64,000 nt of DNA from Anastatus disparis (Eukaryota > Arthropoda > Insecta > Hymenoptera > Eupelmidae). Made by a program: the position numbers and the translations under genes. The number at the start of each line of letters is the position of its first letter. The first letter of the stretch is position 1. Below the pieces are notes generated by a model. That model was not told the origin of the DNA, made no database searches, and saw only the letters and a program-made list of their open reading frames with translations. This document shows, one piece after another, positions 26,963 to 59,104 of the stretch. The DNA is taken from positions 2,294,001-2,358,000 of the forward strand of contig JAFFSR010000227.1 of assembly GCA_017163975.1 (NCBI GenBank). Reading direction: 5' to 3'.

Positions 26963-27549
26963 ATTACCCCGTAATTTTGGAAAAAAAATAATATTTCGAT
27001 ATATACTATAGGGATAATCGGGACTATTTAGACCTCCGGAGAAGAGCGGGCCGGCATCACTTTATATAAGTATATACTACATATTTATTTTACCATTAAG
27101 ATTTTAATATTGTTACATCAAATTACTTTCTTTATTAGAGTTTATTTATAGTTATTGCAATCTTCTAATATTTACTTGTACTCGTATCCAGTGGCGCCAG
27201 TCCGATTTGCCTCAGGGATTTGATTTACCCCGGTTTCCCCTAAGTGCTATTTCAAACTATAGTTGTTAATTGGAATTCTATAAACATTCTTATAATTGTT
27301 TGAAAAACAATACATTATATGTTTCAAAGAAATAAAAATTTCATATTAGATTGAAAATAATCGATGTTTATTGGGGTTATTAACGTATTAAGGGTTCTAT
27401 TAAGATCCTTTCCAAACTTAATGCAGTTAATACTGATCTAAGTACAAAATTGGTCCCTCCCATTTTCAAATATATAATCCTTTATTTTATTATACACCAA
27501 ATCTTAAATTCAGTAAGCCCTTAATCTCTATCTAAGATACCTGAATCAC

Positions 27550-27585
27550 TATAAATATCAATGCTAGGTTGAATTTTCAGCATTC
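27550..27585 (+). promoter_or_regulatory. Core promoter of ALYREF-like copy 1 (TATA + Inr)
   Basis: TATAAATA at 27550-27557 lies 29 bp before the A of TCAGCATT (27577-27584), the spacing expected between a TATA box and an arthropod initiator. The predicted leader is about 99 nt, ending GATCGCAAAAATG. The same arrangement sits 128 bp before the first ATG of the other copies (for example 30508 in copy 2). Confidence 0.6.
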
Positions 27586-27677
27586 ACAGTTTTGCAAGCA
27601 TTTGATACAAACGTTTGACAAAATTGTAAATTTTTAATTCGTTTTCAAAGTTAGAATAACCGAATTAGATCGCAAAA

Positions 27678-28544
27678 ATGTGTAAAAAATTAAGAATGAG
27701 TTTGGACGACATCATCAGGACGAACAAAGCCAATCAATCACGCCAAAATGGCAAACGCAGCGAAACATTCAAAAGAAGACGCAATAAAGTTCCAGAAAGT
27801 AAACATAATAATACAAATGGAGTAATACGTAATCGTGATTACGGGAACATTGTCCGAAAAAATAAAAAAGGATTCAAACAATCGACCAATCATAGAGTCT
27901 ACTCAAGAGCAGAAGAAAACAGAATCCAGAGATGTGTACAGAACGATGCAACTGAATTAAATGTTTGTAATTTAAATTACAAACTGACGGACAAGGATAT
28001 TTCTGATGTATTTAGAACTATTGGGCCTCTAAAATCAGCAAATATTTGTTACAATAAGAATGGACAGTCGTTGGGATCTGCAAGGATCGTTTTTAAACAT
28101 AGAGCCGATGCTGAAAAGGCTTTTGAATTTTTTAATGGTAAAACTTTAGATGGACGGAAAATGAGAATCAAAATATTGGTACCAGAAATCCAATTTAATC
28201 ATCAGCCAATTCATAACAGACTTGGTAATAATTTTAAAAATCATATCTTTAAAAATAATAACAAAAGAAATCAATTCAAACAAGAAAATATTCCTAATAA
28301 TGATAATGTAAGAGATACATTCAATCAAGAAGAGATCCCTGATAATAATGATATAAGAGATACCATCAAACAACAAGATATTTTTAATAATGATGATATA
28401 AGAGATACATTCAAAGAAAATATTCCTGATAATAATAACATAGGAAATACATTAAAACAAGATCAACCAGCAGCAGTAGATATACTTAATGCCAAATTGA
28501 TGGAATTAATGGTTACGGAAAAAATAGACATGGATTTCAATTAA
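27678..28544 (+). CDS. ALYREF/THOC4-like RRM protein, copy 1 (intact, 288 aa)
   Basis: Single-exon frame of 288 aa. Residues 7-20 (MSLDDIIRTNKANQ) match the N-terminal UAP56-binding motif of Aly/REF. A basic, Arg/Lys-rich linker follows. An RRM lies at about residues 93-168, with RNP2 LNVCNLNY and RNP1-like LGSARIVFK, plus the Aly-specific GPLKSANICYN and FFNGKTLDGRKMRIKI. Residues about 204-262 are four imperfect acidic/Asn-rich repeats of the type IPDNNDIRDTFKQ, in the place of the usual RGG tail. The end (AVDILNAKLMEL) weakly resembles the C-terminal UAP56-binding motif. Aly/REF proteins hand mRNA from the TREX complex to the export receptor NXF1. The lack of introns points to retroposed origin. 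Copy 1 has Arg at residue 35, where the other copies have His. A poly(A) signal is at 28581. Confidence 0.9.
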   Translation: MCKKLRMSLDDIIRTNKANQSRQNGKRSETFKRRRNKVPESKHNNTNGVIRNRDYGNIVRKNKKGFKQSTNHRVYSRAEENRIQRCVQNDATELNVCNLNYKLTDKDISDVFRTIGPLKSANICYNKNGQSLGSARIVFKHRADAEKAFEFFNGKTLDGRKMRIKILVPEIQFNHQPIHNRLGNNFKNHIFKNNNKRNQFKQENIPNNDNVRDTFNQEEIPDNNDIRDTIKQQDIFNNDDIRDTFKENIPDNNNIGNTLKQDQPAAVDILNAKLMELMVTEKIDMDFN

Positions 28545-28580
28545 AACTTAGATATATAATTCTAGATATTTTTCTGTAAA

Positions 28581-28586
28581 AATAAA
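28581..28586 (+). terminator. Poly(A) signal AATAAA of ALYREF-like copy 1
   Basis: AATAAA lies 37 bp after the stop codon and is repeated in every unit. A second AATAAA-like site lies about 100 bp further on. Confidence 0.5.
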
Positions 28587-28977
28587 ATAATTTTTTAATG
28601 ACATTTGTAATAGAATATGTAAAAATTAGTTGTAACTAGTTGGATACATATCGTTTTATAAGCAAAAATATATTTAGTATAATAAAGGAAAAATACATAC
28701 GAATTTTCATGCATTTTTTTTATTTCCTATATAATTTTTTAAATCAGTCTTGCAACTTTCCAAATTTTTAATCTTTATTTTATAATCTTCCGAAATATCT
28801 CTACATAATGCTTTTTATTATTTCATATGGAAAGCTGTAATACAGAGATATTTTACAACTTTGGGATTAAAAATAAAAAATTTGAAAAACTGCAATGCCG
28901 TTAGTATCTTACATTTTCTTAATTGATAAGTTGATTTAAGATCAATGATCAATTTAAATTTCATTACAGATTTTTTC

Positions 28978-29090
28978 AAAATAATTGTTCAAGAATACAT
29001 GTTTCTTGTAAATAAATCTTATTTTTTTCTGCTTTCAAAATAATTGAATACATGTTTCTTGTAAATAAATCTTATTTTTTCTGCTTTCAC
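28978..29090. repeat. 55-bp direct duplication inside the unit
   Basis: Two adjacent copies of a segment ending in ATAAATCTTATTTTTTCTGC (28978-29035 and 29036-29090). It is present twice in units 1-7 but only once in unit 8 (about 49680-49738), which explains the shorter last unit. Confidence 0.8.
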
Positions 29091-30635
29091 ATAGATTTTA
29101 AATCCACTCGAAATCTCACATTTTATAAATTTTATTTTTAGTCAATATTTCATAACTTATTCCTATATTACAAGAAATTTTAGTTATTTATAAAAAATGA
29201 TTTTTTCAATATTATATAATGAATTATATATTTTGGCTTTGATTTTGCATATACTAAAGTATAGAACATATACAAACGATTTTCAAAATGTTTAAAAAAA
29301 CATAAATTTAAAGCTTACAAAAATAAAACAAATATAGTATATTTTAAATAATATAATCGAATTGCTTAGCTATTCAAATTTAAAAAGTTGTACCTACATC
29401 TTTTATCAAGATACCCAATTCTCAAAGGATTAAACTAATTAAATACAACAAATGTTCAAAAAAGCATACAAACATTTTGAAGTTCCCATCAAAACTTTTA
29501 AAGAAATTTAAAAAAAAATTTTCTATAAACTTAAAATGATAATTTAAAAATTTCATTTTATCATTAGATTTTAGAAATTCAATGTGATAATTTTTTATTT
29601 TACTTTTAAAAATTTCAAATTTAAGCGAAATAAACGAACTTTGTGAAATCAAGATTTAGAGATGATAAATTTAAATAAAAACAATATCATCGTATGATTA
29701 ATTATATTTTAAAATTTTTCTCAAGAGTTACCTACGTTCGGTTATTCGGCAGAAGTATCTATTTATCATGCTAACGATAAACATACAACTTGTTAATGCT
29801 TAGATACAAATATAACGTTAATTTTAATAATTTTTATATTAAATAGAAATATTGTTATATTTTTGTAATGTTAAATAAAAATTACAAAATTACGAAAAAA
29901 TTATCAAACTAAGAATAAATTACCCCGTAATTTTGGAAAAAAATAATAATTCGATATATAGTATAGGGGTAATCAAGGCTAATTAGACCCCCGGATTAAA
30001 GCGGGCCGGCATCACTTTATATAAGTATATACTACATATTTATTTTACCATTAAGATTTTAATATTGTTACATCAAATTACTTTCTTTGTTAGAGTTTAT
30101 TTATAGTTATTACAATCTTCTAATATTTACTTGTACTCGTATCCAGTGGCGCCAGTCCGATTTGCCTCAGGGATTTGATTTACCCCGGTTTCCCCTATAA
30201 GTGCTATTTCAAACTATAGTTATAAAGTGGAATTCTATAAACATTCTTATAATTGTTTGAAAAACAATACATTATATGTTTCAAAGAAATAAAAATTTCG
30301 TATTAGATTGAAAATAATCGATGTTTATTGGGGTTATTAACGTATTTAAGGGTTCTATTAAGATCCTTTTTAAAGTTAATACAGTTAATACTGATCTAAG
30401 TACAAAATTGGTCCCTCCCATTTTCAAATACATAATCCATTATTTTATTATACACCAAATCTTAAATTCAGTAAGTCCTTAATCTCTATCTAAGATACCT
30501 GAATCACTATAAATATCAATGCTAGGTTGAATTTTCAGCATTCACAGTTTTGCAAGCATTTGATACAAACGTTTGACAAAATTGTAAATTTTTAATTCGT
30601 TTCCAAAGTTAGAATAACCGAATTAGATCGCAAAA

Positions 30636-31501
30636 ATGTGTAAAAAATTAAGAATGAGTTTGGACGACATCATCAGGACGAACAAAGCCAATCAATCACG
30701 CCAAAATGGCAAACGCAGCGAAACATTCAAAAGAAGACACAATAAAGTTCCAGAAAGTAAACATAATAATACAAATGGAGTAATACGTAATCGTGATTAC
30801 GGGAACATTGTCCGAAAAAAAAAAAAGGATTCAAACAATCGACCAATCATAGAGTCTACTCAAGAGCAGAAGAAAACAGAATCCAGAGATGTGTACAGAA
30901 CGATGCAACTGAATTAAATGTTTGTAATTTAAATTACAAACTGACGGACAAGGATATTTCTGATGTATTTAGAACTATTGGGCCTCTAAAATCAGCAAAT
31001 ATTTGTTACAATAAGAATGGACAGTCGTTGGGATCTGCAAGGATCGTTTTTAAACATAGAGCCGATGCTGAAAAGGCTTTTGAATTTTTTAATGGTAAAA
31101 CTTTAGATGGACGGAAAATGAGAATCAAAATATTGGTACCAGAAATCCAATTTAATCATCAGCCAATTCATAACAGACTTGGTAATAATTTTAAAAATCA
31201 TATCTTTAAAAATAATAACAAAAGAAATCAATTCAAACAAGAAAATATTCCTAATAATGATAATGTAAGAGATACATTCAATCAAGAAGAGATCCCTGAT
31301 AATAATGATATAAGAGATACCATCAAACAACAAGATATTTTTAATAATGATGATATAAGAGATACATTCAAAGAAAATATTCCTGATAATAATAACATAG
31401 GAAATACATTAAAACAAGATCAACCAGCAGCAGTAGATATACTTAATGCCAAATTGATGGAATTAATGGTTACGGAAAAAATAGACATGGATTTCAATTA
31501 A
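30636..31501 (+). pseudogene. ALYREF-like copy 2, frameshifted
   Basis: Same gene as copy 1, but in the run after TCCG the T between two A-tracts is absent (12 A in a row at 30815-30826). This shifts the frame after about residue 61 and gives a 93-aa product. The RRM and tail continue in another frame to 31501 with the original end. Apart from this the sequence is nearly identical to copy 1. A homopolymer assembly error is possible. Confidence 0.8.
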
Positions 31502-33592
31502 AACTTAGATATATAATTCTAGATATTTTTCTGTAAAAATAAAATAATTTTTTAATGACATTTGTAATAGAATATGTAAAAATTAGTTGTAACTAGTTGG
31601 ATACATATCGTTTTATAAGCAAAAATATATTTAGTATAATAAAGGAAAAATACATACGAATTTTCATGCATTTTTTTTATTTCCTATATAATTTTTTAAA
31701 TCAGTCTTGCAACTTTCCAAATTTTTAATCTTTATTTTATAATCTTCCGAAATATCTCTACATAATGCTTTTTATTATTTCATATGGAAAGCTGTAATAC
31801 AGAGATATTTTACAACTTTGGGATTAAAAATAAAAATTTGAAAAACTGCAATGCCGTTAGTATCTTACATTTTCTTAATTGATAAGTTGATTTAAGATCA
31901 ATGATCAATTTAAATTTCATTACAGATTTTTTCAAAATAATTGTTCAAGAATACATGTTTCTTGTAAATAAATCTTATTTTTTTCTGCTTTCAAAATAAT
32001 TGAATACATGTTTCTTGTAAATAAATCTTATTTTTTTCTGCTTTCACATAGATTTTAAATCCACTCGAAATCTCACATTTTATAAATTTTATTTTTAGTC
32101 AATATTTCATAACTTATTCCTATATTACAAGAAATTTTAGTTATTTATAAAAATGATTTTTTTTCAATATTATATAATGAATTATATATTTTGGCTTTGA
32201 TTTTGCATATACTAAAGTATAGAACATATACAAACGATTTTCAAAATGTTTAAAAAAACATAAATTTAAAGCTTACAAAAATAAAACAAATATAGTATAT
32301 TTTAAATAATATAATCGAATTGCTTAGCTATTCAAATTTAAAAAGTTGTACCTACATCTTTTATCAAGATACCCAATTCTCAAAGGATTAAACTAATTAA
32401 ATACAACAAATGTTCAAAAAAGCATACAAACATTTTGAAGTTCCCATCAAAACTTTTAAAGAAATTTAAAAAAAAATTTTCTATAAACTTAAAATGATAA
32501 TTTAAAAATTTCATTTTATCATTAGATTTTAGAAATTCAATGTGATAATTTTTTATTTTACTTTTAAAAATTTCAAATTTAAGCGAAATAAACGAACTTT
32601 GTGAAATCAAGATTTAGAGATGATAAATTTAAATAAAAACAATATCATCGTATGATTAATTATATTTTAAAATTTTTCTCAAGAGTTACCTACGTTCGGT
32701 TATTCGGCAGAAGTATCTATTTATCATGCTAACGATAAACATACAACTTGTTAATGCTTAGATACAAATATAACGTTAATTTTAATAATTTTTATATTAA
32801 ATAGAAATATTGTTATATTTTTGTAATGTTAAATAAAAATTACAAAATTACGAAAAAATTATCAAACTAAGAATAAATTACCCCGTAATTTTGGAAAAAA
32901 ATAATAATTCGATATATAATATAGGGGTAATCAAGGCTAATTAGACCCCCGGATTAAAGCGGGCCGGCATCACTTTATATAAGTATATACTACATATTTA
33001 TTTTACCATTAAGATTTTAATATTGTTACATCAAATTACTTTCTTTGTTAGAGTTTATTTATAGTTATTACAATCTTCTAATATTTACTTGTACTCGTAT
33101 CCAGTGGCGCCAGTCCGATTTGCCTCAGGGATTTGATTTACCCCGGTTTCCCCTATAAGTGCTATTTCAAACTATAGTTATAAAGTGGAATTCTATAAAC
33201 ATTCTTATAATTGTTTGAAAAAAAATACATTATATGTTTCAAAGAAATAAAAATTTCGTATTAGATTGAAAATAATCGATGTTTATTGGGGTTATTAACG
33301 TATTAAGGGTTCTATTAAGATCCTTTTTAAAGTTAATACAGTTAATACTGATCTAAGTACAAAATTGGTCCCTCCCATTTTCAAATACATAATCCATTAT
33401 TTTATTATACACCAAATCTTAAATTCAGTAAGTCCTTAATCTCTATCTAAGATACCTGAATCACTATAAATATCAATGCTAGGTTGAATTTTCAGCATTC
33501 ACAGTTTTGCAAGCATTTGATACAAACGTTTGACAAAATTGTAAATTTTTAATTCGTTTCCAAAGTTAGAATAACCGAATTAGATCGCAAAA

Positions 33593-34437
33593 ATGTGTAA
33601 AAAATTAAGAATGAGTTTGGACGACATCATCAGGACGAACAAAGCCAATCAATCACGCCAAAATGGCAAACGCAGCGAAACATTCAAAAGAAGACACAAT
33701 AAAGTTCCAGAAAGTAAACATAATAATACAAATGGAGTAATACGTAATCGTGATTACGGGAACATTGTCCGAAAAAATAAAAAAGGATTCAAACAATCGA
33801 CCAATCATAGAGTCTACTCAAGAGCAGAAGAAAACAGAATCCAGAGATGTGTACAGAACGATGCAACTGAATTAAATGTTTGTAATTTAAATTACAAACT
33901 GACGGACAAGGATATTTCTGATGTATTTAGAACTATTGGGCCTCTAAAATCAGCAAATATTTGTTACAATAAGAATGGACAGTCGTTGGGATCTGCAAGG
34001 ATCGTTTTTAAACATAGAGCCGATGCTGAAAAGGCTTTTGAATTTTTAATGGTAAAACTTTAGATGGACGGAAAATGAGAATCAAAATATTGGTACCAGA
34101 AATCCAATTTAATCATCAGCCAATTCATAACAGACTTGGTAATAATTTTAAAAATCATATCTTTAAAAATAATAACAAAAGAAATCAATTCAAACAAGAA
34201 AATATTCCTAATAATGATAATGTAAGAGATACATTCAATCAAGAAGAGATCCCTGATAATAATGATATAAGAGATACCATCAAACAACAAGATATTTTTA
34301 ATAATGATGATATAAGAGATACATTCAAAGAAAATATTCCTGATAATAATAACATAGGAAATACATTAAAACAAGATCAACCAGCAGCAGTAGATATACT
34401 TAATGCCAAATTGATGGAATTAATGGTTACGGAATAA
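33593..34437 (+). pseudogene. ALYREF-like copy 3, frameshifted in RRM
   Basis: The first 153 residues match copy 1. A T-run of five instead of six at 34043-34047 (after AGGCTTTTGAA) then shifts the frame inside the last part of the RRM, giving a 156-aa product. The tail frame resumes at 34075 and ends early at 34437, because the Lys codon after MVTE became TAA (a shared change with copies 6 and 8). Confidence 0.8.
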
Positions 34438-36550
34438 ATAGACATGGATTTCAATTAAAACTTAGATATATAATTCTAGATATTTTTCTGTAAAAATAAA
34501 ATAATTTTTAATGACATTTGTAATAGAATATGTAAAAATTAGTTGTAACTAGTTGGATACATATCGTTTTATAAGCAAAAATATATTTAGTATAATAAAG
34601 GAAAAATACATACGAATTTTCATGCATTTTTTTTATTTCCTATATAATTTGTTTAAATCAGTCTTGCAACTTTCCAAATTTTTAATCTTTATTTTATAAT
34701 CTTCCGAAATATCTCTACATAATGCTTTTATTATTTCATATGGAAAGCTGTAATACAGAGATATTTTACAACTTTGGGATTAAAAATAAAAAATTTGAAA
34801 AACTGCAATGCCGTTAGTATCTTACATTTTCTTAATTGATAAGTTGATTTAAGATCAATGATCAATTTAAATTTCATTACAGATTTTTTCAAAATAATTG
34901 TTCAAGAATACATGTTTCTTGTAAATAAATCTTATTTTTTTCTGCTTTCAAAATAATTGAATACATGTTTCTTGTAAATAAATCTTATTTTTTTCTGCTT
35001 TCACATAGATTTTAAATCCACTCGAAATCTCACATTTTATAAATTTTATTTTTAGTCAATATTTCATAACTTATTCCTATATTACAAGAAATTTTAGTTA
35101 TTTATAAAAAATGATTTTTTTCAATATTATATAATGAATTATATATTTTGGCTTTGATTTTGCATATACTAAAGTATAGAACATATACAAACGATTTTCA
35201 AAATGTTTAAAAAAACATAAATTTAAAGCTTACAAAAATAAAACAAATATAGTATATTTTAAATAATATAATCGAATTGCTTAGCTATTCAAATTTAAAA
35301 AGTTGTACCTACATCTTTTATCAAGATACCCAATTCTCAAAGGATTAAACTAATTAAATACAACAAATGTTCAAAAAAGCATACAAACATTTTGAAGTTC
35401 CCATCAAAACTTTTAAAGAAATTTAAAAAAAAATTTTCTATAAACTTAAAATGATAATTTAAAAATTTCATTTTATCATTAGATTTTAGAAATTCAATGT
35501 GATAATTTTTTATTTTACTTTTAAAAATTTCAAATTTAAGCGAAATAAACGAACTTTGTGAAATCAAGATTTAGAGATGATAAATTTAAATAAAAACAAT
35601 ATCATCGTATGATTAATTATATTTTAAAATTTTTCTCAAGAGTTACCTACGTTCGGTTATTCGGCAGAAGTATCTATTTATCATGCTAACGATAAACATA
35701 CAACTTGTTAATGCTTAGATACAAATATAACGTTAATTTTAATAATTTTTATATTAAATAGAAATATTGTTATATTTTTTGTAATGTTAAATAAAAATTA
35801 CAAAATTACGAAAAAATTATCAAACTAAGAATAAATTACCCCGTAATTTTGGAAAAAAATAATAATTCGATATATAGTATAGGGGTAATCAAGGCTAATT
35901 AGACCCCCGGATTAAAGCGGGCCGGCATCACTTTATATAAGTATATACTACATATTTATTTTACCATTAAGATTTTAATATTGTTACATCAAATTACTTT
36001 CTTTGTTAGAGTTTATTTATAGTTATTACAATCTTCTAATATTTACTTGTACTCGTATCCAGTGGCGCCAGTCCGATTTGCCTCAGGGATTTGATTTACC
36101 CCGGTTTCCCCTATAAGTGCTATTTCAAACTATAGTTATAAAGTGGAATTCTATAAACATTCTTATAATTGTTTGAAAAAAAATACATTATATGTTTCAA
36201 AGAAATAAAAATTTCGTATTAGATTGAAAATAATCGATGTTTATTGGGGTTATTAACGTATTAAGGGTTCTATTAAGATCCTTTTTAAAGTTAATACAGT
36301 TAATACTGATCTAAGTACAAAATTGGTCCCTCCCATTTTCAAATACATAATCCATTATTTTATTATACACCAAATCTTAAATTCAGTAAGTCCTTAATCT
36401 CTATCTAAGATACCTGAATCACTATAAATATCAATGCTAGGTTGAATTTTCAGCATTCACAGTTTTGCAAGCATTTGATACAAACGTTTGACAAAATTGT
36501 AAATTTTTAATTCGTTTCCAAAGTTAGAATAACCGAATTAGATCGCAAAA

Positions 36551-37416
36551 ATGTGTAAAAAATTAAGAATGAGTTTGGACGACATCATCAGGACGAACAA
36601 AGCCAATCAATCACGCCAAAATGGCAAACGCAGCGAAACATTCAAAAGAAGACACAATAAAGTTCCAGAAAGTAAACATAATAATACAAATGGAGTAATA
36701 CGTAATCGTGATTACGGGAACATTGTCCGAAAAAATAAAAAAGGATTCAAACAATCGACCAATCATAGAGTCTACTCAAGAGCAGAAGAAAACAGAATCC
36801 AGAGATGTGTACAGAACGATGCAACTGAATTAAATGTTTGTAATTTAAATTACAAACTGACGGACAAGGATATTTCTGATGTATTTAGAACTATTGGGCC
36901 TCTAAAATCAGCAAATATTTGTTACAATAAGAATGGACAGTCGTTGGGATCTGCAAGGATCGTTTTTAAACATAGAGCCGATGCTGAAAAGGCTTTTGAA
37001 TTTTTAATGGTAAAACTTTAGATGGACGGAAAATGAGAATCAAAATATTGGTACCAGAAATCCAATTTAATCATCAGCCAATTCATAACAGACTTGGTAA
37101 TAATTTTAAAAATCATATCTTTAAAAATAATAACAAAAGAAATCAATTCAAACAAGAAAATATTCCTAATAATGATAATGTAAGAGATACATTCAATCAA
37201 GAAGAGATCCCTGATAATAATGATATAAGAGATACCATCAAACAACAAGATATTTTTAATAATGATGATATAAGAGATACATTCAAAGAAAATATTCCTG
37301 ATAATAATAACATAGGAAATACATTAAAACAAGATCAACCAGCAGCAGTAGATATACTTAATGCCAAATTGATGGAATTAATGGTTACGGAAAAAATAGA
37401 CATGGATTTCAATTAA
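36551..37416 (+). pseudogene. ALYREF-like copy 4, frameshifted in RRM
   Basis: Carries the same five-T run as copy 3 (37001-37005), giving a 156-aa product truncated in the RRM. The downstream tail frame (37033-37416) is otherwise complete, with the original KIDMDFN ending. The lesion shared with neighbouring copies 3 and 5 suggests it spread by duplication. Confidence 0.8.
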
Positions 37417-39508
37417 AACTTAGATATATAATTCTAGATATTTTTCTGTAAAAATAAAATAATTTTTTAATGACATTTGTAATAGAATATGTAAAAATTA
37501 GTTGTAACTAGTTGGATACATATCGTTTTATAAGCAAAAATATATTTAGTATAATAAAGGAAAAATACATACGAATTTTCATGCATTTTTTTTATTTCCT
37601 ATATAATTTTTTAAATCAGTCTTGCAACTTTCCAAATTTTTAATCTTTATTTTATAATCTTCCGAAATATCTCTACATAATGCTTTTTATTATTTCATAT
37701 GGAAAGCTGTAATACAGAGATATTTTACAACTTTGGGATTAAAAATAAAAATTTGAAAAACTGCAATGCCGTTAGTATCTTACATTTTCTTAATTGATAA
37801 GTTGATTTAAGATCAATGATCAATTTAAATTTCATTACAGATTTTTTCAAAATAATTGTTCAAGAATACATGTTTCTTGTAAATAAATCTTTTTTTTCTG
37901 CTTTCAAAATAATTGAATACATGTTTCTTGTAAATAAATCTTATTTTTTTCTGCTTTCACATAGATTTTAAATCCACTCGAAATCTCACATTTTATAAAT
38001 TTTATTTTTAGTCAATATTTCATAACTTATTCCTATATTACAAGAAATTTTAGTTATTTATAAAAAATGATTTTTTTCAATATTATATAATGAATTATAT
38101 ATTTTGGCTTTGATTTTGCATATACTAAAGTATAGAACATATACAAACGATTTTCAAAATGTTTAAAAAAACATAAATTTAAAGCTTACAAAAATAAAAC
38201 AAATATAGTATATTTTAAATAATATAATCGAATTGCTTAGCTATTCAAATTTAAAAAGTTGTACCTACATCTTTTATCAAGATACCCAATTCTCAAAGGA
38301 TTAAACTAATTAAATACAACAAATGTTCAAAAAAGCATACAAACATTTTGAAGTTCCCATCAAAACTTTTAAAGAAATTTAAAAAAAAAATTTTCTATAA
38401 ACTTAAAATGATAATTTAAAAATTTCATTTTATCATTAGATTTTAGAAATTCAATGTGATAATTTTTTATTTTACTTTTAAAAATTTCAAATTTAAGCGA
38501 AATAAACGAACTTTGTGAAATCAAGATTTAGAGATGATAAATTTAAATAAAAACAATATCATCGTATGATTAATTATATTTTAAAATTTTTCTCAAGAGT
38601 TACCTACGTTCGGTTATTCGGCAGAAGTATCTATTTATCATGCTAACGATAAACATACAACTTGTTAATGCTTAGATACAAATATAACGTTAATTTTAAT
38701 AATTTTTATATTAAATAGAAATATTGTTATATTTTTTGTAATGTTAAATAAAAATTACAAAATTACGAAAAAATTATCAAACTAAGAATAAATTACCCCG
38801 TAATTTTGGAAAAAAAATAATAATTCGATATATAGTATAGGGGTAATCAAGGCTAATTAGACCCCCGGATTAAAGCGGGCCGGCATCACTTTATATAAGT
38901 ATATACTACATATTTATTTTACCATTAAGATTTTAATATTGTTACATCAAATTACTTTCTTTGTTAGAGTTTATTTATAGTTATTACAATCTTCTAATAT
39001 TTACTTGTACTCGTATCCAGTGGCGCCAGTCCGATTTGCCTCAGGGATTTGATTTACCCCGGTTTCCCCTATAAGTGCTATTTCAAACTATAGTTATAAA
39101 GTGGAATTCTATAAACATTCTTATAATTGTTTGAAAAAAAATACATTATATGTTTCAAAGAAATAAAAATTTCGTATTAGATTGAAAATAATCGATGTTT
39201 ATTGGGGTTATTAACGTATTAAGGGTTCTATTAAGATCCTTTTTAAAGTTAATACAGTTAATACTGATCTAAGTACAAAATTGGTCCCTCCCATTTTCAA
39301 ATACATAATCCATTATTTTATTATACACCAAATCTTAAATTCAGTAAGTCCTTAATCTCTATCTAAGATACCTGAATCACTATAAATATCAATGCTAGGT
39401 TGAATTTTCAGCATTCACAGTTTTGCAAGCATTTGATACAAACGTTTGACAAAATTGTAAATTTTTAATTCGTTTCCAAAGTTAGAATAACCGAATTAGA
39501 TCGCAAAA

Positions 39509-40375
39509 ATGTGTAAAAAATTAAGAATGAGTTTGGACGACATCATCAGGACGAACAAAGCCAATCAATCACGCCAAAATGGCAAACGCAGCGAAACATT
39601 CAAAAGAAGACACAATAAAGTTCCAGAAAGTAAACATAATAATACAAATGGAGTAATACGTAATCGTGATTACGGGAACATTGTCCGAAAAAAATAAAAA
39701 AGGATTCAAACAATCGACCAATCATAGAGTCTACTCAAGAGCAGAAGAAAACAGAATCCAGAGATGTGTACAGAACGATGCAACTGAATTAAATGTTTGT
39801 AATTTAAATTACAAACTGACGGACAAGGATATTTCTGATGTATTTAGAACTATTGGGCCTCTAAAATCAGCAAATATTTGTTACAATAAGAATGGACAGT
39901 CGTTGGGATCTGCAAGGATCGTTTTTAAACATAGAGCCGATGCTGAAAAGGCTTTTGAATTTTTAATGGTAAAACTTTAGATGGACGGAAAATGAGAATC
40001 AAAATATTGGTACCAGAAATCCAATTTAATCATCAGCCAATTCATAACAGACTTGGTAATAATTTTAAAAATCATATCTTTAAAAATAATAACAAAAGAA
40101 ATCAATTCAAACAAGAAAATATTCCTAATAATGATAATGTAAGAGATACATTCAATCAAGAAGAGATCCCTGATAATAATGATATAAGAGATACCATCAA
40201 ACAACAAGATATTTTTAATAATGATGATATAAGAGATACATTCAAAGAAAATATTCCTGATAATAATAACATAGGAAATACATTAAAACAAGATCAACCA
40301 GCAGCAGTAGATATACTTAATGCCAAATTGATGGAATTAATGGTTACGGAAAAAATAGACATGGATTTCAATTAA
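39509..40375 (+). pseudogene. ALYREF-like copy 5, two frameshifts
   Basis: An extra A in the run at 39688-39694 (seven instead of six) stops translation after 62 aa. The five-T lesion of copies 3 and 4 is also present (about 39960-39964). The two shifts are of opposite sign, so the C-terminal repeats return to the original frame, but the intervening RRM is out of frame with the start. Confidence 0.8.
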
Positions 40376-42482
40376 AACTTAGATATATAATTCTAGATAT
40401 TTTTCTGTAAAAATAAAATAATTTTTTAATGACATTTGTAATAGAATATGTAAAAATTAGTTGTAACTAGTTGGATACATATCGTTTTATAAGCAAAAAT
40501 ATATTTAGTATAATAAAGGAAAAATACATACGAATTTTCATGCATTTTTTTTATTTCCTATATAATTTTTTAAATCAGTCTTGCAACTTTCCAAATTTTT
40601 AATCTTTATTTTATAATCTTCCGAAATATCTCTACATAATGCTTTTTATTATTTCATATGGAAAGCTGTAATACAGAGATATTTTACAACTTTGGGATTA
40701 AAAATAAAAAATTTGAAAAACTGCAATGCCGTTAGTATCTTACATTTTCTTAATTGATAAGTTGATTTAAGATCAATGATCAATTTAAATTTCATTACAG
40801 ATTTTTTCAAAATAATTGTTCAAGAATACATGTTTCTTGTAAATAAATCTTATTTTTTCTGCTTTCAAAATAATTGAATACATGTTTCTTGTAAATAAAT
40901 CTTATTTTTTTCTGCTTTCACATAGATTTTAAATCCACTCGAAATCTCACATTTTATAAATTTTATTTTTAGTCAATATTTCATAACTTATTCCTATATT
41001 ACAAGAAATTTTAGTTATTTATAAAAAATGATTTTTTTCAATATTATATAATGAATTATATATTTTGGCTTTGATTTTGCATATACTAAAGTATAGAACA
41101 TATACAAACGATTTTCAAAATGTTTAAAAAACATAAATTTAAAGCTTACAAAAATAAAACAAATATAGTATATTTTAAATAATATAATCGAATTGCTTAG
41201 CTATTCAAATTTAAAAAGTTGTACCTACATCTTTTATCAAGATACCCAATTCTCAAAGGATTAAACTAATTAAATACAACAAATGTTCAAAAAAGCATAC
41301 AAACATTTTGAAGTTCCCATCAAAACTTTTAAAGAAATTTAAAAAAAAATTTTCTATAAACTTAAAATGATAATTTAAAAATTTCATTTTATCATTAGAT
41401 TTTAGAAATTCAATGTGATAATTTTTTATTTTACTTTTAAAAATTTCAAATTTAAGCGAAATAAACGAACTTTGTGAAATCAAGATTTAGAGATGATAAA
41501 TTTAAATAAAAACAATATCATCGTATGATTAATTATATTTTAAAATTTTTCTCAAGAGTTACCTACGTTCGGTTATTCGGCAGAAGTATCTATTTATCAT
41601 GCTAACGATAAACATACAACTTGTTAATGCTTAGATACAAATATAACGTTAATTTTAATAATTTTTATATTAAATAGAAATATTGTTATATTTTTTGTAA
41701 TGTTAAATAAAAATTACAAAATTACGAAAAAATTATCAAACTAAGAATAAATTACCCCGTAATTTTGGAAAAAAATAATAATTCGATATATAGTATAGGG
41801 GTAATCAAGGCTAATTAGACCCCCGGATTAAAAAGGGCCGGCATCACTTTATATAAGTATATACTACATATTTATTTTACCATTAAGATTTTAATATTGT
41901 TACATCAAATTACTTTCTTTGTTAGAGTTTATTTATAGTTATTACAATCTTCTAATATTTACTTGTACTCGTATCCAGTGGCGCCAGTCCGATTTGCCTC
42001 AGGGATTTGATTTACCCGGTTTCCCCTATAAGTGCTATTTCAAACTATAGTTATAAAGTGGAATTCTATAAACATTCTTATAATTGTTTGAAAAAAAATA
42101 CATTATATGTTTCAAAGAAATAAAAATTTCGTATTAGATTGAAAATAATCGATGTTTATTGGGGTTATTAACGTATTAAGGGTTCTATTAAGATCCTTTT
42201 TAAAGTTAATACAGTTAATACTGATCTAAGTACAAAATTGGTCCCTCCCATTTTCAAATACATAATCCATTATTTTATTATACACCAAATCTTAAATTCA
42301 GTAAGTCCTTAATCTCTATCTAAGATACCTGAATCACTATAAATATCAATGCTAGGTTGAATTTTCAGCATTCACAGTTTTGCAAGCATTTGATACAAAC
42401 GTTTGACAAAATTGTAAATTTTTAATTCGTTTCCAAAGTTAGAATAACCGAATTAGATCGCAAAAATGTGTAAAAATTAAGA

Positions 42483-43310
42483 ATGAGTTTGGACGACATC
42501 ATCAGGACGAACAAAGCCAATCAATCACGCCAAAATGGCAAACGCAGCGAAACATTCAAAAGAAGACACAATAAAGTTCCAGAAAGTAAACATAATAATA
42601 CAAATGGAGTAATACGTAATCGTGATTACGGGAACATTGTCCGAAAAAATAAAAAAGGATTCAAACAATCGACCAATCATAGAGTCTACTCAAGAGCAGA
42701 AGAAAACAGAATCCAGAGATGTGTACAGAACGATGCAACTGAATTAAATGTTTGTAATTTAAATTACAAACTGACGGACAAGGATATTTCTGATGTATTT
42801 AGAACTATTGGGCCTCTAAAATCAGCAAATATTTGTTACAATAAGAATGGACAGTCGTTGGGATCTGCAAGGATCGTTTTTAAACATAGAGCCGATGCTG
42901 AAAAGGCTTTTGAATTTTTTAATGGTAAAACTTTAGATGGACGGAAAATGAGAATCAAAATATTGGTACCAGAAATCCAATTTAATCATCAGCCAATTCA
43001 TAACAGACTTGGTAATAATTTTAAAAATCATATCTTTAAAAATAATAACAAAAGAAATCAATTCAAACAAGAAAATATTCCTAATAAGGATAATGTAAGA
43101 GATACATTCAATCAAGAAGAGATCCCTGATAATAATGATATAAGAGATACCATCAAACAACAAGATATTTTTAATAATGATGATATAAGAGATACATTCA
43201 AAGAAAATATTCCTGATAATAATAACATAGGAAATACATTAAAACAAGATCAACCAGCAGCAGTAGATATACTTAATGCCAAATTGATGGAATTAATGGT
43301 TACGGAATAA
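42483..43310 (+). CDS. ALYREF-like copy 6 (open from second Met, 275 aa)
   Basis: The first ATG (42466) is followed by a 1-nt A-run shortening that gives an immediate stop (ATG TGT AAA AAT TAA). The second ATG, at MSLDDIIR, opens the whole protein: UAP56-binding motif, RRM and four C-terminal repeats. It ends seven residues early at 43310 (TAA in place of a Lys codon). One private change puts Lys in the first repeat (NIPNKDN). Because the lost residues precede the first motif, this copy could still be functional. Confidence 0.8.
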   Translation: MSLDDIIRTNKANQSRQNGKRSETFKRRHNKVPESKHNNTNGVIRNRDYGNIVRKNKKGFKQSTNHRVYSRAEENRIQRCVQNDATELNVCNLNYKLTDKDISDVFRTIGPLKSANICYNKNGQSLGSARIVFKHRADAEKAFEFFNGKTLDGRKMRIKILVPEIQFNHQPIHNRLGNNFKNHIFKNNNKRNQFKQENIPNKDNVRDTFNQEEIPDNNDIRDTIKQQDIFNNDDIRDTFKENIPDNNNIGNTLKQDQPAAVDILNAKLMELMVTE

Positions 43311-45421
43311 ATAGACATGGATTTCAATTAAAACTTAGATATATAATTCTAGATATTTTTCTGTAAAAATAAAATAATTTTTTAATGACATTTGTAATAG
43401 AATATGTAAAAATTAGTTGTAACTAGTTGGATACATATCGTTTTATAAGCAAAAATATATTTAGTATAATAAAGGAAAAATACATACGAATTTTCATGCA
43501 TTTTTTTTATTTCCTATATAATTTTTTAAATCAGTCTTGCAACTTTCCAAATTTTTAATCTTTATTTTATAATCTTCCGAAATATCTCTACATAATGCTT
43601 TTTATTATTTCATATGGAAAGCTGTAATACAGAGATATTTTACAACTTTGGGATTAAAAATAAAAAATTTGAAAAACTGCAATGTTAGTATCTTACATTT
43701 TCTTAATTGATAAGTTGATTTAAGATCAATGATCAATTTAAATTTCATTACAGATTTTTTCAAAATAATTGTTCAAGAATACATGTTTCTTGTAAATAAA
43801 TCTTATTTTTTTCTGCTTTCAAAATAATTGAATACATGTTTCTTGTAAATAAATCTTATTTTTTTCTGCTTTCACATAGATTTTAAATCCACTCGAAATC
43901 TCACATTTTATAAATTTTATTTTTAGTCAATATTTCATAACTTATTCCTATATTACAAGAAATTTTAGTTATTTATAAAAAATGATTTTTTTCAATATTA
44001 TATAATGAATTATATATTTTGGCTTTGATTTTGCATATACTAAAGTATAGAACATATACAAACGATTTTCAAAATGTTTAAAAAAACATAAATTTAAAGC
44101 TTACAAAAATAAAACAAATATAGTATATTTTAAATAATATAATCGAATTGCTTAGCTATTCAAATTTAAAAAGTTGTACCTACATCTTTTATCAAGATAC
44201 CCAATTCTCAAAGGATTAAACTAATTAAATACAACAAATGTTCAAAAAAGCATACAAACATTTTGAAGTTCCCATCAAAACTTTTAAAGAAATTTAAAAA
44301 AAAATTTTCTATAAACTTAAAATGATAATTTAAAAATTTCATTTTATCATTAGATTTTAGAAATTCAATGTGATAATTTTTTATTTTACTTTTAAAAATT
44401 TCAAATTTAAGCGAAATAAACGAACTTTGTGAAATCAAGATTTAGAGATGATAAATTTAAATAAAAACAATATCATCGTATGATTAATTATATTTTAAAA
44501 TTTTTTCTCAAGAGTTACCTACGTTCGGTTATTCGGCAGAAGTATCTATTTATCATGCTAACGATAAACATACAACTTGTTAATGCTTAGATACAAATAT
44601 AACGTTAATTTTAATAATTTTTATATTAAATAGAAATATTGTTTATATTTTTGTAATGTTAAATAAAAATTACAAAATTACGAAAAAATTATCAAACTAA
44701 GAATAAATTACCCCGTAATTTTGGAAAAAAAATAATAATTCGATATATAGTATAGGGGTAATCAAGGCTAATTAGACCCCCGGATTAAAGCGGGCCGGCA
44801 TCACTTTATATAAGTATATACTACATATTTATTTTACCATTAAGATTTTAATATTGTTACATCAAATTACTTTCTTTGTTAGAGTTTATTTATAGTTATT
44901 ACAATCTTCTAATATTTACTTGTACTCGTATCCAGTGGCGCCAGTCCGATTTGCCTCAGGATTTGATTTACCCGGGTTTCCCTATAAGTGCTATTTCAAA
45001 CTATAGTTATAAAGTGGAATTCTATAAACATTCTTATAATTGTTTGAAAAACAATACATTATATGTTTCAAAGAAATAAAAATTTCGTATTAGATTGAAA
45101 ATAATCGATGTTTATTGGGGTTATTAACGTATTAAGGGTTCTATTAAGATCCTTTTTAAAGTTAATACAGTTAATACTGATCTAAGTACAAAATTGGTCC
45201 CTCCCATTTTCAAATACATAATCCTTTATTTTATTATACACCAAATCTTAAATTCAGTAAGTCCTTAATCTCTATCTAAGATACCTGAATCACTATAAAT
45301 ATCAATGCTAGGTTGAATTTTCAGCATTCACAGTTTTGCAAGCATTTGATACAAACGTTTGACAAAATTGTAAATTTTTAATTCGTTTCCAAAGTTAGAA
45401 TAACCGAATTAGATCGCAACA

Positions 45422-46289
45422 ATGTGTAAAAAATTAAGAATGAGTTTGGACGACATCATCAGGACGAACAAAGCCAATCAATCACGCCAAAATGGCAAAC
45501 GCAGCGAAACATTCAAAAAGAAGACACAATAAAGTTCCAGAAAGTAAACATAATAATACAAATGGAGTAATACGTAATCGTGATTACGGGAACATTGTCC
45601 GAAAAAATAAAAAAGGATTCAAACAATCGACCAATCATAGAGTCTACTCAAGAGCAGAAGAAAACAGAATCCAGAGATGTGTACAGAACGATGCAACTGA
45701 ATTAAATGTTTGTAATTTAAATTACAAACTGACGGACAAGGATATTTCTGATGTATTTAGAACTATTGGGCCTCTAAAATCAGCAAATATTTGTTACAAT
45801 AAGAATGGACAGTCGTTGGGATCTGCAAGGATCGTTTTTAAACATAGAGCCGATGCTGAAAAGGCTTTTGAATTTTTTAATGGTAAAACTTTAGATGGAC
45901 GGAAAATGAGAATCAAAATATTGGTACCAGAAATCCAATTTAATCATCAGCCAATTCATAACAGACTTGGTAATAATTTTAAAAATCATATCTTTAAAAA
46001 TAATAACAAAAGAAATCAATTCAAACAAGAAAATATTCCTAATAATGATAATGTAAGAGATACATTCAATCAAGAAGAGATCCCTGATAATAATGATATA
46101 AGAGATACCATCAAACAACAAGATATTTTTAATAATGATGATATAAGAGATACATTCAAAGAAAATATTCCTGATAATAATAACATAGGAAATACATTAA
46201 AACAAGATCAACCAGCAGCAGTAGATATACTTAATGCCAAATTGATGGAATTAATGGTTACGGAAAAAATAGACATGGATTTCAATTAA
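45422..46289 (+). pseudogene. ALYREF-like copy 7, early frameshift
   Basis: An extra A in the run at 45515-45519 (CAAAAAG against CAAAAG) shifts the frame at about residue 32, just after the UAP56-binding motif. A frame from a different upstream ATG (45492) reads through the linker, RRM and tail (265 aa), but lacks the N-terminal motif. The ATG context is GCAACAATG, shared with copy 8 only. Confidence 0.75.
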
Positions 46290-48380
46290 AACTTAGATAT
46301 ATAATTCTAGATATTTTTCTGTAAAAATAAAATAATTTTTTAATGACATTTGTAATAGAATATGTAAAAATTAGTTGTAACTAGTTGGATACATATCGTT
46401 TTATAAGCAAAAATATATTTAGTATAATAAAGGAAAAATACATACGAATTTTCATGCATTTTTTTTATTTCCTATATAATTTTTTAAATCAGTCTTGCAA
46501 CTTTCCAAATTTTTAATCTTTATTTTATAATCTTCCGAAATATCTCTACATAATGCTTTTTATTATTTCATATGGAAAGCTGTAATACAGAGATATTTTA
46601 CAACTTTGGGATTAAAAATAAAAAATTTGAAAAACTGCAATGCCGTTAGTATCTTACATTTTCTTAATTGATAAGTTGATTTAAGATCAATGATCAATTT
46701 AAATTTCATTACAGATTTTTTCAAAATAATTGTTCAAGAATACATGTTTCTTGTAAATAAATCTTATTTTTTTCTGCTTTCAAAATAATTGAATACATGT
46801 TTCTTGTAAATAAATCTTATTTTTTTCTGCTTTCACATAGATTTTAAATCCACTCGAAATCTCACATTTTATAAATTTTATTTTTAGTCAATATTTCATA
46901 ACTTATTCCTATATTACAAGAAATTTTAGTTATTTATAAAAATGATTTTTTTCAATATTATATAATGAATTATATATTTTGGCTTTGATTTTGCATATAC
47001 TAAAGTATAGAACATATACAAACGATTTTCAAAATGTTTAAAAAACATAAATTTAAAGCTTACAAAATAAAACAAATATAGTATATTTTAAATAATATAA
47101 TCGAATTGCTTAGCTATTCAAATTTAAAAAGTTGTACCTACATCTTTTATCAAGATACCCAATTCTCAAAGGATTAAACTAATTACATACAACAAATGTT
47201 CAAAAAAGCATACAAACATTTTGAAGTTCCCATCAAAACTTTTAAAGAAATTTAAAAAAAAAATTTTCTATAAACTTAAAATGATAATTTAAAAATTTCA
47301 TTTTATCATTAGATTTTAGAAATTCAATGTGATAATTTTTTATTTTACTTTTAAAAATTTCAAATTTAAGCGAAATAAACGAACTTTGTGAAATCAAGAT
47401 TTAGAGATGATAAATTTAAATAAAAACAATATCATCGTATGATTAATTATATTTTAAAATTTTTCTCAAGAGTTACCTACGTTCGGTTATTCGGCAGAAG
47501 TATCTATTTATCATGCTAACGATAAACATACAACTTGTTAATGCTTAGATACAAATATAACGTTAATTTTAATAATTTTTATATTAAATAGAAATATTGT
47601 TATATTTTTGTAATGTTAAATAAAAATTACAAAATTACGAAAAAATTATCAAACTAAGAATAAATTACCCCGTAATTTTGGAAAAAAAATAATAATTCGA
47701 TATATAGTATAGGGGTAATCAAGGCTAATTAGACCCCCGGATTAAAGCGGGCCGGCATCACTTTATATAAGTATATACTACATATTTATTTTACCATTAA
47801 GATTTTAATATTGTTACATCAAATTACTTTCTTTGTTAGAGTTTATTTATAGTTATTACAATCTTCTAATATTTACTTGTACTCGTATCCAGTGGCGCCA
47901 GTCCGATTTGCCTCAGGGATTTGATTTACCCCGGTTTCCCCTATAAGTGCTATTTCAAACTATAGTTATAAAGTGGAATTCTATAAACATTCTTATAATT
48001 GTTTGAAAAACAATACATTATATGTTTCAAAGAAATAAAAATTTCGTATTAGATTGAAAATAATCGATGTTTATTGGGGTTATTAACGTATTAAGGGTTC
48101 TATTAAGATCCTTTTTAAAGTTAATACAGTTAATACTGATCTAAGTACAAAATTGGTCCCTCCCATTTTCAAATATATAATCCTTTATTTTATTATACAC
48201 CAAATCTTAAATTCAGTAAGCCCTTAATCTCTATCTAAGATACCTGAATCACTATAAATATCAATGCTAGGTTGAATTTTCAGCATTCACAGTTTTGCAA
48301 GCATTTGATACAAACGTTTGACAAAATTGTAAATTTTTAATTCGTTTCTAAAGTTAGAATAACCGAATTAGATCGCAACA

Positions 48381-49226
48381 ATGTGTAAAAAATTAAGAAT
48401 GAGTTTGGACGACATCATCAGGACGAACAAAGCCAATCAATCACGCCAAAATGGCAAACGCAGCGAAACATTCAAAAGAAGACACAATAAAGTTCCAGAA
48501 AGTAAACATAATAATACAAATGGAGTAATACGTAATCGTGATTACGGGAACATTGTCCGAAAAAATAAAAAAGGATTCAAACAATCGACCAATCATAGAG
48601 TCTACTCAAGAGCAGAAGAAAACAGAATCCAGAGATGTGTACAGAACGATGCAACTGAATTAAATGTTTGTAATTTAAATTACAAACTGACGGACAAGGA
48701 TATTTCTGATGTATTTAGAACTATTGGGCCTCTAAAATCAGCAAATATTTGTTACAATAAGAATGGACAGTCGTTGGGATCTGCAAGGATCGTTTTTAAA
48801 CATAGAGCCGATGCTGAAAAGGCTTTTGAATTTTTTAATGGTAAAACTTTAGATGGACGGAAAATGAGAATCAAAATATTGGTACCAGAAATCCAATTTA
48901 ATCATCAGCCAATTCATAACAGACTTGGTAATAATTTTAAAAATCATATCTTTAAAAATAATAACAAAAGAAATCAATTCAAACAAGAAAATATTCCTAA
49001 TAATGATAATGTAAGAGATACATTCAATCAAGAAGAGATCCCTGATAATAATGATATAAGAGATACCATCAAACAACAAGATATTTTTAATAATGATGAT
49101 ATAAGAGATACATTCAAAGAAAATATTCCTGATAATAATAACATAGGAAATACATTAAAACAAGATCAACCAGCAGCAGTAGATATACTTAATGCCAAAT
49201 TGATGGAATTAATGGTTACGGAATAA
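48381..49226 (+). CDS. ALYREF-like copy 8 (intact, 281 aa)
   Basis: Complete single-exon frame with the MSLDDII motif, basic linker, RRM (about residues 93-168) and four Asn/Asp-rich repeats. It ends at ...LMELMVTE because AAA became TAA, so it is seven residues shorter than copy 1. It is the last unit, next to the splice donor of the host gene on the other strand, and its 3' non-coding part has the most private substitutions. Confidence 0.9.
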   Translation: MCKKLRMSLDDIIRTNKANQSRQNGKRSETFKRRHNKVPESKHNNTNGVIRNRDYGNIVRKNKKGFKQSTNHRVYSRAEENRIQRCVQNDATELNVCNLNYKLTDKDISDVFRTIGPLKSANICYNKNGQSLGSARIVFKHRADAEKAFEFFNGKTLDGRKMRIKILVPEIQFNHQPIHNRLGNNFKNHIFKNNNKRNQFKQENIPNNDNVRDTFNQEEIPDNNDIRDTIKQQDIFNNDDIRDTFKENIPDNNNIGNTLKQDQPAAVDILNAKLMELMVTE

Positions 49227-50716
49227 ATAGACATGGATTTCAATTAAAACTTAGATATATAATTCTAGATATTTTTCTGTAAAAATAAAATAATTTTTTA
49301 ATGACATTTGTAATAGAATATGTAAAAATTAGTTGTAACTAGTTGGATACATATCGTTTTATAAGCAAAAATATATTTAGTATAATAAAGGAAAAATACA
49401 TACGAATTTTCATGCATTTTTTTTATTTCCTATATAATTTTTTAAATCAGTCTTGCAACTTTCCAAATTTTTAATCTTTATTTTATAATCTTCCGAAATA
49501 TCTCTACATAATGCTTTTTATTATTTCATATGGAAAGCTGTAATACAGAGATATTTTACAACTTTGGGATTAAAAATAAAAAATTTGAAAAACTGCAATG
49601 CCGTTAGTATCTTACATTTTCTTAATTGATAAGTTGATTTAAGATCAATGATCAATTTAAATTTCATTACAGATTTTTTCAAAATAATTGTTCAAGAATA
49701 CATGTTTCTTGTAAATAAATCTTATTTTTTTCTGCTTTCACATAGATTTTAAATCCACTCGAAATTTCACATTTTATAAATTTTATTTTTAGTCAATATT
49801 TTATAACTTATTCCTATATTACAAGAAATTTTAGTTATTTATAAAAAATGATTTTTTTCAATATTATATAATGAATTATATATTTTGGCTTTGGTTTGCA
49901 TATACTAAAGTATAGAACATATACAAACGATTTTCAAAATGTTTAAAAAAACATAAATTTAAAGCTTACAAAAATAAAACAAATATAGTATATTTTAAAT
50001 AATATAATCGAATTGCTTAGCTATTCAAATTTAAAAAGTTGTACCTACATCTTTTATCAAGATACCCAATTCTCAAAGGATTAAACTAATTAAATACAAC
50101 AAATGTTCAAAAAAGCATACAAACATTTTGAAGTTTCCATCAAAACTTTTAAAGAAATTTAAAAAAAAAATTTTCCATAAACTTAAAATGATAATTTAAA
50201 AATTTCATTTTATCATTAGATTTTAGAAATTCAATGTGATAATTTTTTATTTTACTTTTAAAAATTTCAAATTTAAGCGAAATAAACGAACTTTGTGAAA
50301 TCAAGATTTAGAGATGATAAATTTAAATGAAAACAATATCATCGTATGATTAATTATATTTTAAAATTTTTCTCAAGAGTTACCTACGTTCGGTTATTCG
50401 GCAGAAGTATCTATTTATCATGCTAACGAAAAACATACAACTTGTTAATGCTTAGATACAAATATAACGTTAATTTTAATAATTTTTATATTAAATAGAA
50501 ATATTGTTATATTTTTTGTAATGTTAAATAAAAATTACAAAATTACGAAAAAATTATCAAACTAAGAATAAATTTATAATTGATTGCAGAAAGTTAAAGT
50601 TTTTCAAAATGTTAAAAAATATTTAAAAACTACTTGAGATTCATATGACTAAAAATATGAAATTTTCGTTAACAATAATCAAAAGAAAAAAAGATGCAAT
50701 AAAATTGAAATTTTAC

Positions 50717-58819: not shown

Positions 58820-59104
58820 TTTTACAAACCTAATAATTTTATCAAAAAATGAAGAGAAAGCCGCATCTTGTATCAAAAAAAGCAATATTTTCTTTGATAA
58901 GAAAAAATTAATTTTATTGCTTCGTTCTCAAGAAAACCTTGAAAAACCAAATTGTCCACTCTAACCTCTATGATTGAAGTTTTTCAAGGTTTTCTTGAGA
59001 ACGAAGCAATAAAATTAATTTTTTCTTATCAAAGAAAATATTGCTTTTTGATACAAGATGCGGCTTTCTCTTCATTTTTTGATAAATTTATTAGTTTTTG
59101 TAAA
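58820..59104. repeat. Near-perfect snapback hairpin, 127-bp arms, 31-nt loop
   Basis: The left arm 58820-58947 is almost exactly mirrored by 58979-59104 (for example CTTGAGAACGAAGCAATAAA on one side and its complement on the other). The very high arm identity implies recent origin or ongoing correction. Confidence 0.9.

Follow-up and report, generated by a model that had tools for sequence, protein, structure and literature searches.

In two papers (PMC7614608, PMC4797287), human ALYREF is described as binding UAP56 through its UAP56-binding motifs (UBMs), and as contacting the exon-junction complex (EJC) through a WxHD motif and through its RNA recognition motif (RRM), which includes R144; CBP80 likewise binds with the help of WxHD, and RNA is bound by two further arms. 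In Drosophila, according to another paper, export-factor paralogues serve the export of PIWI-interacting RNA (piRNA) precursors (PMC6719614). Here, we describe a family of ALYREF-like genes found in a 64,000-nucleotide stretch of the Anastatus disparis genome (assembly GCA_017163975.1, contig JAFFSR010000227.1, positions 2,294,001 to 2,358,000, forward strand), hereafter the window. The window holds eight tandem copies of an intronless Aly/REF-like gene, and further copies, arrayed and single, occur elsewhere in the same genome. The RRM of the family stayed under purifying selection and, judging from the motifs that are kept and lost, its members would most likely act as UAP56-binding adaptors or competitors without guidance by splicing marks.

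The first unit of the window array (u1) contains a 288-amino-acid open reading frame (ORF), while 200 base shuffles of this unit gave no ORF longer than 136 amino acids; the frame is thus beyond chance. Its product is laid out as an N-terminal UBM helix (residues 9-20), an RRM (about 92-167), and a C-terminal UBM-like helix (266-285). The RRM matched Pfam RRM_1 with an E value of 5e-15. A sequence search of the PDB placed a four-RRM poly(A)-binding protein at rank 1 (best domain 25 bits) and THOC4/REF2 at ranks 2-6 (THOC4 domain 59 bits), and ranks 1-4 of a fold search were THOC4/ALYREF/REF2, with 42% identity of the Aly-type RRM to the human protein. These results bear out the assignment to Aly/REF-like RRM proteins made in an original prediction from the letters of the window. 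The u1 segment MSLDDIIRTNK aligns with MSLDDIIKLNR of human THOC4, the N-terminal UBM (SLDD/E), and is predicted to bind UAP56. The C-terminal UBM, ILNAKLMELMV, was recognized by motif, and its helix was predicted at moderate confidence in a structure model whose confidence outside the RRM was low to moderate.

The u1 protein was used as a query against the window's own assembly (939,413,245 bases, 399 contigs); all of the 105 first-look candidates were scored, yielding 77 matches. Four tandem arrays of intronless Aly-like genes were found, with 8 + 10 + 11 + 15 = 44 copies as counted in this one assembly. Besides the window array, these are the C135 array (10 copies, 30157402-30198000, spacing 4.4-4.8 kb), the C225b array (11 copies, C225 3767445-3811167, spacing 4.3 kb, about 1.4 Mb from the window array), and the C218 array (15 copies, 8035801-8073255, 2.3 kb apart except for one 6.8-kb gap, 37-38% identity). 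Identity is 65-78% for the single copies on C135, C224, and C389; further matches are a C12 copy with stops and more distant Aly-like genes. The C135 copies (10/10) are open for 192-194 amino acids and have no in-frame C-terminal UBM. In the C225b array, 9 of the 11 copies are open through the RRM and 6 to a complete C-terminus; 10 lack the first ATG, with Met7 in frame. All 15 C218 copies encode an identical 160 amino acids, the C-terminal UBM being absent. The canonical ALYREF gene of the same genome lies at C252:2999543-3001438 (locus L049, C252:2999400-3001600) and consists of two exons split inside the RRM. An intronless Aly/REF single copy at C372:173984-174331, outside any array found, shares with the family the lack of an RRM intron and a GVIRNR..GSIVRR stretch preceding the RRM; it differs in being closer to canonical ALYREF (52% identity) than to the window gene (39%), in keeping the R-finger, and in not being arrayed.

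Two observations were made around the C218 genes. Regions C224:4224977-4269047 and C135:4465691-4466170 contain more relatives of them (43-83% identity), several of which lie in a stretch of 44 kb. A 476-aa transposase-like frame, which we take to resemble piggyBac, is located at C218:8076120-8077550 (L047 6120-7550), about 3 kb past the C218 array.

The family was compared with 120 listed of 215 relatives found, 94 of which had both UBM patterns, the other 26 lacking one. The family keeps the SLDD-type N-terminal motif, a putative UAP56 contact, and RLG after the RRM. Both UBMs occur in the window array (u1 has the C-terminal UBM-like helix), the C225b array, and the single copies, and the N-terminal UBM alone in the C135 and C218 arrays. 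The features that ALYREF/THOC4 has and the family does not are several. RGG is absent, and RG/GR dipeptides number 0-2 in 10 family rows (1 in u1), as compared with a median of 23 (lowest 2, in P0111) among the 94 listed relatives; the RG-rich arms (RBD1, RBD2) are gone. WxHD, present in 81 of these 94, is absent from the family. The R-finger, human R144, is replaced by Q in the window and C135 arrays and by K in the C225b and C218 arrays, while it is R in 89 of the 89 readable sequences among the 94 (5 were not readable by pattern). Finally, the RRM intron is lost, and the linker carries N/D-rich repeats of 15 amino acids.

The protein database returned only general Aly proteins as matches to the family, at no more than 51% identity over a quarter of the query; the same database does contain P0057, a protein 94% identical to the canonical ALYREF of this genome. 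No relative turned up when viral contigs were scanned with the u1 protein, and no earlier published description of the family appeared among the papers listed in searches of open-access text.

The ratio of nonsynonymous to synonymous substitution rates (dN/dS) between u1 and the single-copy locus L007 was 0.36 overall, falling to 0.13 for the RRM (Fisher p 6e-7). The RRM value, obtained against a single-copy paralogue, indicates a long coding history. In the tail, dN/dS was 0.64, not distinguishable from neutral (p 0.36). Values below 1 were obtained in 18 of 20 region comparisons, and the remaining two (1.08 and 1.16) were not different from 1; the former comes from the RRM of a C135 copy compared with L007, one of five pairs, and is based on 3 synonymous changes. 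Variation was also compared within arrays, each unit being counted from its start codon up to that of the following copy (7 window, 8 C135, 10 C225b, and 13 C218 units); the first C135 copy, the first C218 copy, and the stretch past each array's last start codon are left out, and p values are uncorrected for the number of tests. In the C135 array, there were 0/585 substitutions in the coding part vs 35/3842 in the rest (p 0.011), and 0 vs 43 indels (p 0.005). The C225b coding part was also less variable than the rest (p 0.03 for substitutions, 0.02 for indels). In the C218 array, 0 vs 16 indels (p 0.03) and 2 vs 25 substitutions (p 0.10) were observed, both coding substitutions being synonymous. 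When runs of at least 6 bases (at least 5 for G or C) are counted in the coding part, there are 5 in the window array, 1 in C135, 3 in C225b, and 0 in C218, so run content accounts for part of the difference.

These data bear on the possibility that the proteins act as decoys, competing with ALYREF for UAP56, and were amplified in an arms race, in intragenomic conflict or against mobile elements. Recurrent amplification of a single pathway component, retention of UBMs while other ALYREF features were lost, a tail evolving at a rate not distinguishable from neutral, and the use of export-factor paralogues in piRNA precursor export in Drosophila (PMC6719614) would all suit such decoys. Yet the dN/dS values contain no sign of positive selection, and we consider this explanation improbable.

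The window array consists of eight head-to-tail direct units at 26964-50573, with a start-to-start spacing of 2956-2959 bp, in agreement with the eight near-identical tandem 2.96-kb units originally predicted. Its features (window coordinates) are as follows.

26964-29919, + strand: unit 1, an edge copy whose outer 460 bp differ from those of the other units in the unit alignment.
27550-27557, + strand: u1 TATA box TATAAATA, found in 8/8 units; those of u2-u8 start at 30508, 33465, 36423, 39381, 42338, 45294, and 48253.
27574-27589, + strand: u1 initiator region TTTTCAGCATTCACAG, starting 24 bp past the TATA-box start, found in 8/8 units.
27678-28544, + strand: u1 coding sequence, 288 aa, the array's sole complete frame.
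28250-28462, + strand: 45-bp repeats (15 aa, N/D-rich), the linker between the RRM and the C-terminal UBM.
28681-28686, + strand: u1 poly(A) signal AATAAA; those of u2-u8 start at 31638, 34594, 37553, 40512, 43468, 46426, and 49384.
29920-32877, + strand: unit 2, coding region 30636-31501, frameshift near codon 62.
31707-31899, + strand: dispersed, partly palindromic repeat resembling a miniature inverted-repeat transposable element (MITE), within the unit's 3' part; the coordinates are those in u2.
32878-35835, + strand: unit 3, coding region 33593-34458, RRM frameshift (T run), stop at codon 282.
35836-38792, + strand: unit 4, coding region 36551-37416, RRM frameshift (T run).
38793-41751, + strand: unit 5, coding region 39509-40375, two frameshifts.
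41752-44707, + strand: unit 6, coding region 42466-43331, first ATG out of frame.
44708-47664, + strand: unit 7, coding region 45422-46289, frameshift near codon 32.
47665-50573, + strand: unit 8, edge copy, ~53-bp deletion, coding region 48381-49247, 281 aa, stop at codon 282.

A promoter-side segment of about 230 bp at 29962-30200 is absent from L007 and the C225b array and is possibly an inserted element.

In the unit alignment (2968 columns), 49 substitutions and 30 indel events were found among the eight units. The inner units u2-u7 differ pairwise by 0-12 substitutions, while the outer edge of u1 (26964-27423) carries 21 private substitutions (~4.6% divergence). Unit 8, shortened to 2909 bp by its deletion, has 7 of its 8 private substitutions at 29115-29778 (u1 coordinates). 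Diverged ends flanking near-identical inner units probably reflect homogenization by unequal exchange, with the ends out of its reach. Thus, the divergence of the u1 edge indicates an array homogenized over time rather than a single fresh burst. The local burst originally proposed was rejected on this ground and because three more arrays and several single copies exist elsewhere in the genome. All seven internal junctions are alike, with 3 bp of microhomology between the flanks (a by-eye reading), which is consistent with a single founding end-joining duplication. That the copy number is an assembly artefact is scarcely credible: copy-specific substitutions separate the units, the edges are diverged as in a real array, the array sits in a 24.9-Mb contig, and four arrays exist.

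Each unit had been predicted to carry a promoter, a gene, and a poly(A) signal. The regulatory part of this claim stood, the TATA box, initiator, start region, and AATAAA being identical in 8/8 units; a usable gene in every unit did not. As assembled, the full 288 codons are present in u1 only (1/8). The N-terminal UBM and RRM are joined in one frame in three units (u1, u6 from Met7, and u8), and the RRM is open in four (these and u7). In u6, Met7 at 42483 is in frame and the stop at codon 282 leaves 275 aa; the 265-aa frame of u7, from 45492, keeps the RRM and not the N-terminal UBM. The idea that the codon-282 stop removes the C-terminal UBM was dropped, since the LNAKL core precedes the stop.

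Frames are broken by frameshifts in five of the eight units (u2, u3, u4, u5, and u7), and two more have start or stop damage. This pattern would be expected if the family were functional and the window array were a dying branch, that is, a pseudogene cluster homogenized by recombination in which u1 is the last complete copy. In the same direction, variability in the window coding part is not significantly lower than elsewhere in the unit, and 6 of 40 long A/T runs in the array (five runs of six in 8 copies) are changed in length vs 0 of 39 in three single-copy window ORFs (p 0.026), though these ORFs were picked because they are open. On the other hand, all frame changes affect a single base and fall within A/T runs or between them (four A in u7, runs of six in the others), and the differences are rich in indels, as consensus error would give. 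Indels are mostly as numerous as substitutions, or more so, when the closest units of the window, C135, and C225b arrays are compared (u4 vs u5: 0 substitutions, 6 indels); the excess is less clear in the C218 array. Such indel-heavy differences between close units suggest residual consensus error in the repeats. We regard the dying branch as possible but, on balance, unlikely. The window array is the least constrained of the four, and it may be decaying.

The frame of the window gene reads through the position of the RRM intron of the canonical gene, so the family descends from an intronless copy (a retrocopy), and the intronless Aly/REF-derived nature of the gene, as first proposed, is supported. 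Blocks comprising the 5' flank, gene, and 3' flank are 74-86% alike between loci and share the promoter, initiator, 3' untranslated region, and poly(A) signal. At the matching TATA position, TATAAATA or TATATATA was found in the five aligned loci (the C135 array, the C225b array, L007, L020, and L023), in all of which the initiator stretch is kept with few changes; AATAAA is conserved at L007, L020, L023, and the C225b array. Sharing of promoters, flanks, and 3' ends indicates that later copies moved as DNA, and separate retroposition of each copy was rejected, as promoters and 3' ends travel with the gene. No poly(A) tract or target-site duplication was seen by eye at unit ends, but since copies now move as DNA, these ends need not be those of the original insertion.

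A tree of 28 rows united the window copies, the C135 array, the C225b array, and three single copies in one clade (100/99). It divides into a sub-clade of the window, L007, and C135 (98/95) and another of L020, L023, and C225b (95/89), both of which contain single copies as well as one or more arrays. It follows that arrays arose two or more times, most simply three, within the clade. The canonical C252 ALYREF grouped with those of the chalcidoids Ceratosolen and Copidosoma (86/87), which, as far as one gene can tell, points to a chalcidoid host. Several family rows are compositionally unusual, the join of the clade to other Aly proteins is without resolution, and the C218 row is on a very long branch, its placement being unsure.

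Another way to account for the spread is that the unit is part of a gene-carrying mobile element. A dispersed MITE-like repeat does lie inside the unit, in the other window copies as well as u2, and recurs at C225:9.08 Mb, on C135, and on at least six further contigs (40 of 1290 candidates scored), with some both-strand matches; a 46-bp motif from the beginning of the unit is found again at L007, L020, and the C225b array. Nothing in the anatomy of the unit, however, points to a known transposable element. Apart from the gene, u7 has only three ORFs of at least 40 aa, all short (40-48 aa), and ORFs of at least 120 aa inside the C135, C225b, and C218 arrays are family genes only, with no element gene. 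No inverted repeat links the unit ends, the same junction is seen at 7/7 internal boundaries, and no target-site duplications were found at the loci read. The 77 protein matches sort into arrays, single copies, and distant RRM genes. We consider a mobile element very improbable, and the original prediction of a host-derived gene rather than a known transposable element still stands.

Our tentative reading, to which we give somewhat less than an even chance, is that of a diverged family of UAP56-binding adaptors, freed from splicing marks and repeatedly amplified for dosage, with the window array least constrained and perhaps decaying. The family began with an ALYREF copy without the RRM intron, spread as DNA carrying the promoter and 3' end, and underwent tandem multiplication in several sub-lineages; the arrays would have been enlarged and homogenized by unequal crossing-over and conversion. 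The proteins would bind UAP56 via the N-terminal UBM, in some copies also the C-terminal one, and RNA via the RRM and the basic N-terminal arm. Lacking WxHD, the R-finger, and the RG arms, they would not be placed on messages by exon-junction or cap-binding complexes, and might act as EJC-independent TREX adaptors, or as UAP56 competitors, for a restricted RNA set. The setting would be a tissue that profits from high dosage; the likeliest guess, drawn from the example of Nxf3 in Drosophila, is the germline. A wider proposal appears doubtful, namely that EJC-free Aly/REF retrocopy sub-lineages, with four arrays and 44 copies, make up a second, parallel export-adaptor system, exporting unspliced RNAs (the precursors of piRNAs, or germline messages that have no introns), either at high dosage or as part of a conflict with mobile elements.

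Several observations weigh against the adaptor reading. The C135 and C218 arrays have no in-frame C-terminal UBM, so UAP56 binding there would depend on one motif. The Aly C-terminus domain FoP_duplication (PF13865), precomputed for most insect THOC4 among the relatives listed, was not found in the window protein at E 0.1. A fly relative, P0111 (Teleopsis), has both UBM motifs with only 2 RG/GR dipeptides. At the R144 position, the 26 other relatives listed have K in 9 cases (mostly of algal/protist type), R in 11, and G in 1, with 5 not readable; K is thus not peculiar to the family. WxHD is also missing from the canonical ALYREF of the same genome and from 13 of the 94 listed relatives, including Ceratosolen and Copidosoma. 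Its loss therefore probably predates the family and is no family hallmark in chalcidoids. A chalcidoid-type stretch, GVTDSDILELF, occurs in 9 of these 13, and chalcidoids as a whole may have lost WxHD docking to the EJC and CBP80. Lastly, the coding part of the window array shows 3 substitutions vs 18 in the rest (p 0.15) and 5 indels vs 20 (p 0.38), and all three coding substitutions alter or stop the protein.

As to P0111 itself, this short, RG-poor, WxHD-less protein of the stalk-eyed fly Teleopsis dalmanni is perhaps an independent stripped-down Aly paralogue. Five TAP_C matches, representing NXF-type export receptors, were found in the wasp genome (C301, C306, and C227), with no array; two of them lie 2.2 kb apart on C227 in long open frames. 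Elsewhere in the window, an 18-bp tandem repeat of about 21 copies occupies 59538-59912, and recurrent frame pieces (LIRKGQRYVT, NEEKAASCIKK) at 58663-60286 suggest another dispersed repeat. No structured RNA was matched in Rfam at gathering scores.

ALYREF is widespread, and a family that has a predicted UAP56 grip and an RRM, without the contacts to splicing marks and the RG arms, and whose genes were tandemly multiplied in several sub-lineages of a single genome, amounts to a natural separation-of-function experiment. It makes testable whether UAP56 binding suffices for RNA export, and why selection would favour dosage of an export factor. A possible working mode is provided by Drosophila Nxf2/Nxf3, duplicated export factors described as devoted to special RNAs together with UAP56 (PMC6719614). 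They belong to another protein family. To our knowledge, Nxf2/Nxf3 form no tandem arrays. Multicopy families tied to genetic conflict include Slx/Sly in mice and the X/Y co-amplified genes of Drosophila. With these, the wasp arrays share the character of lineage-specific multicopy genes.

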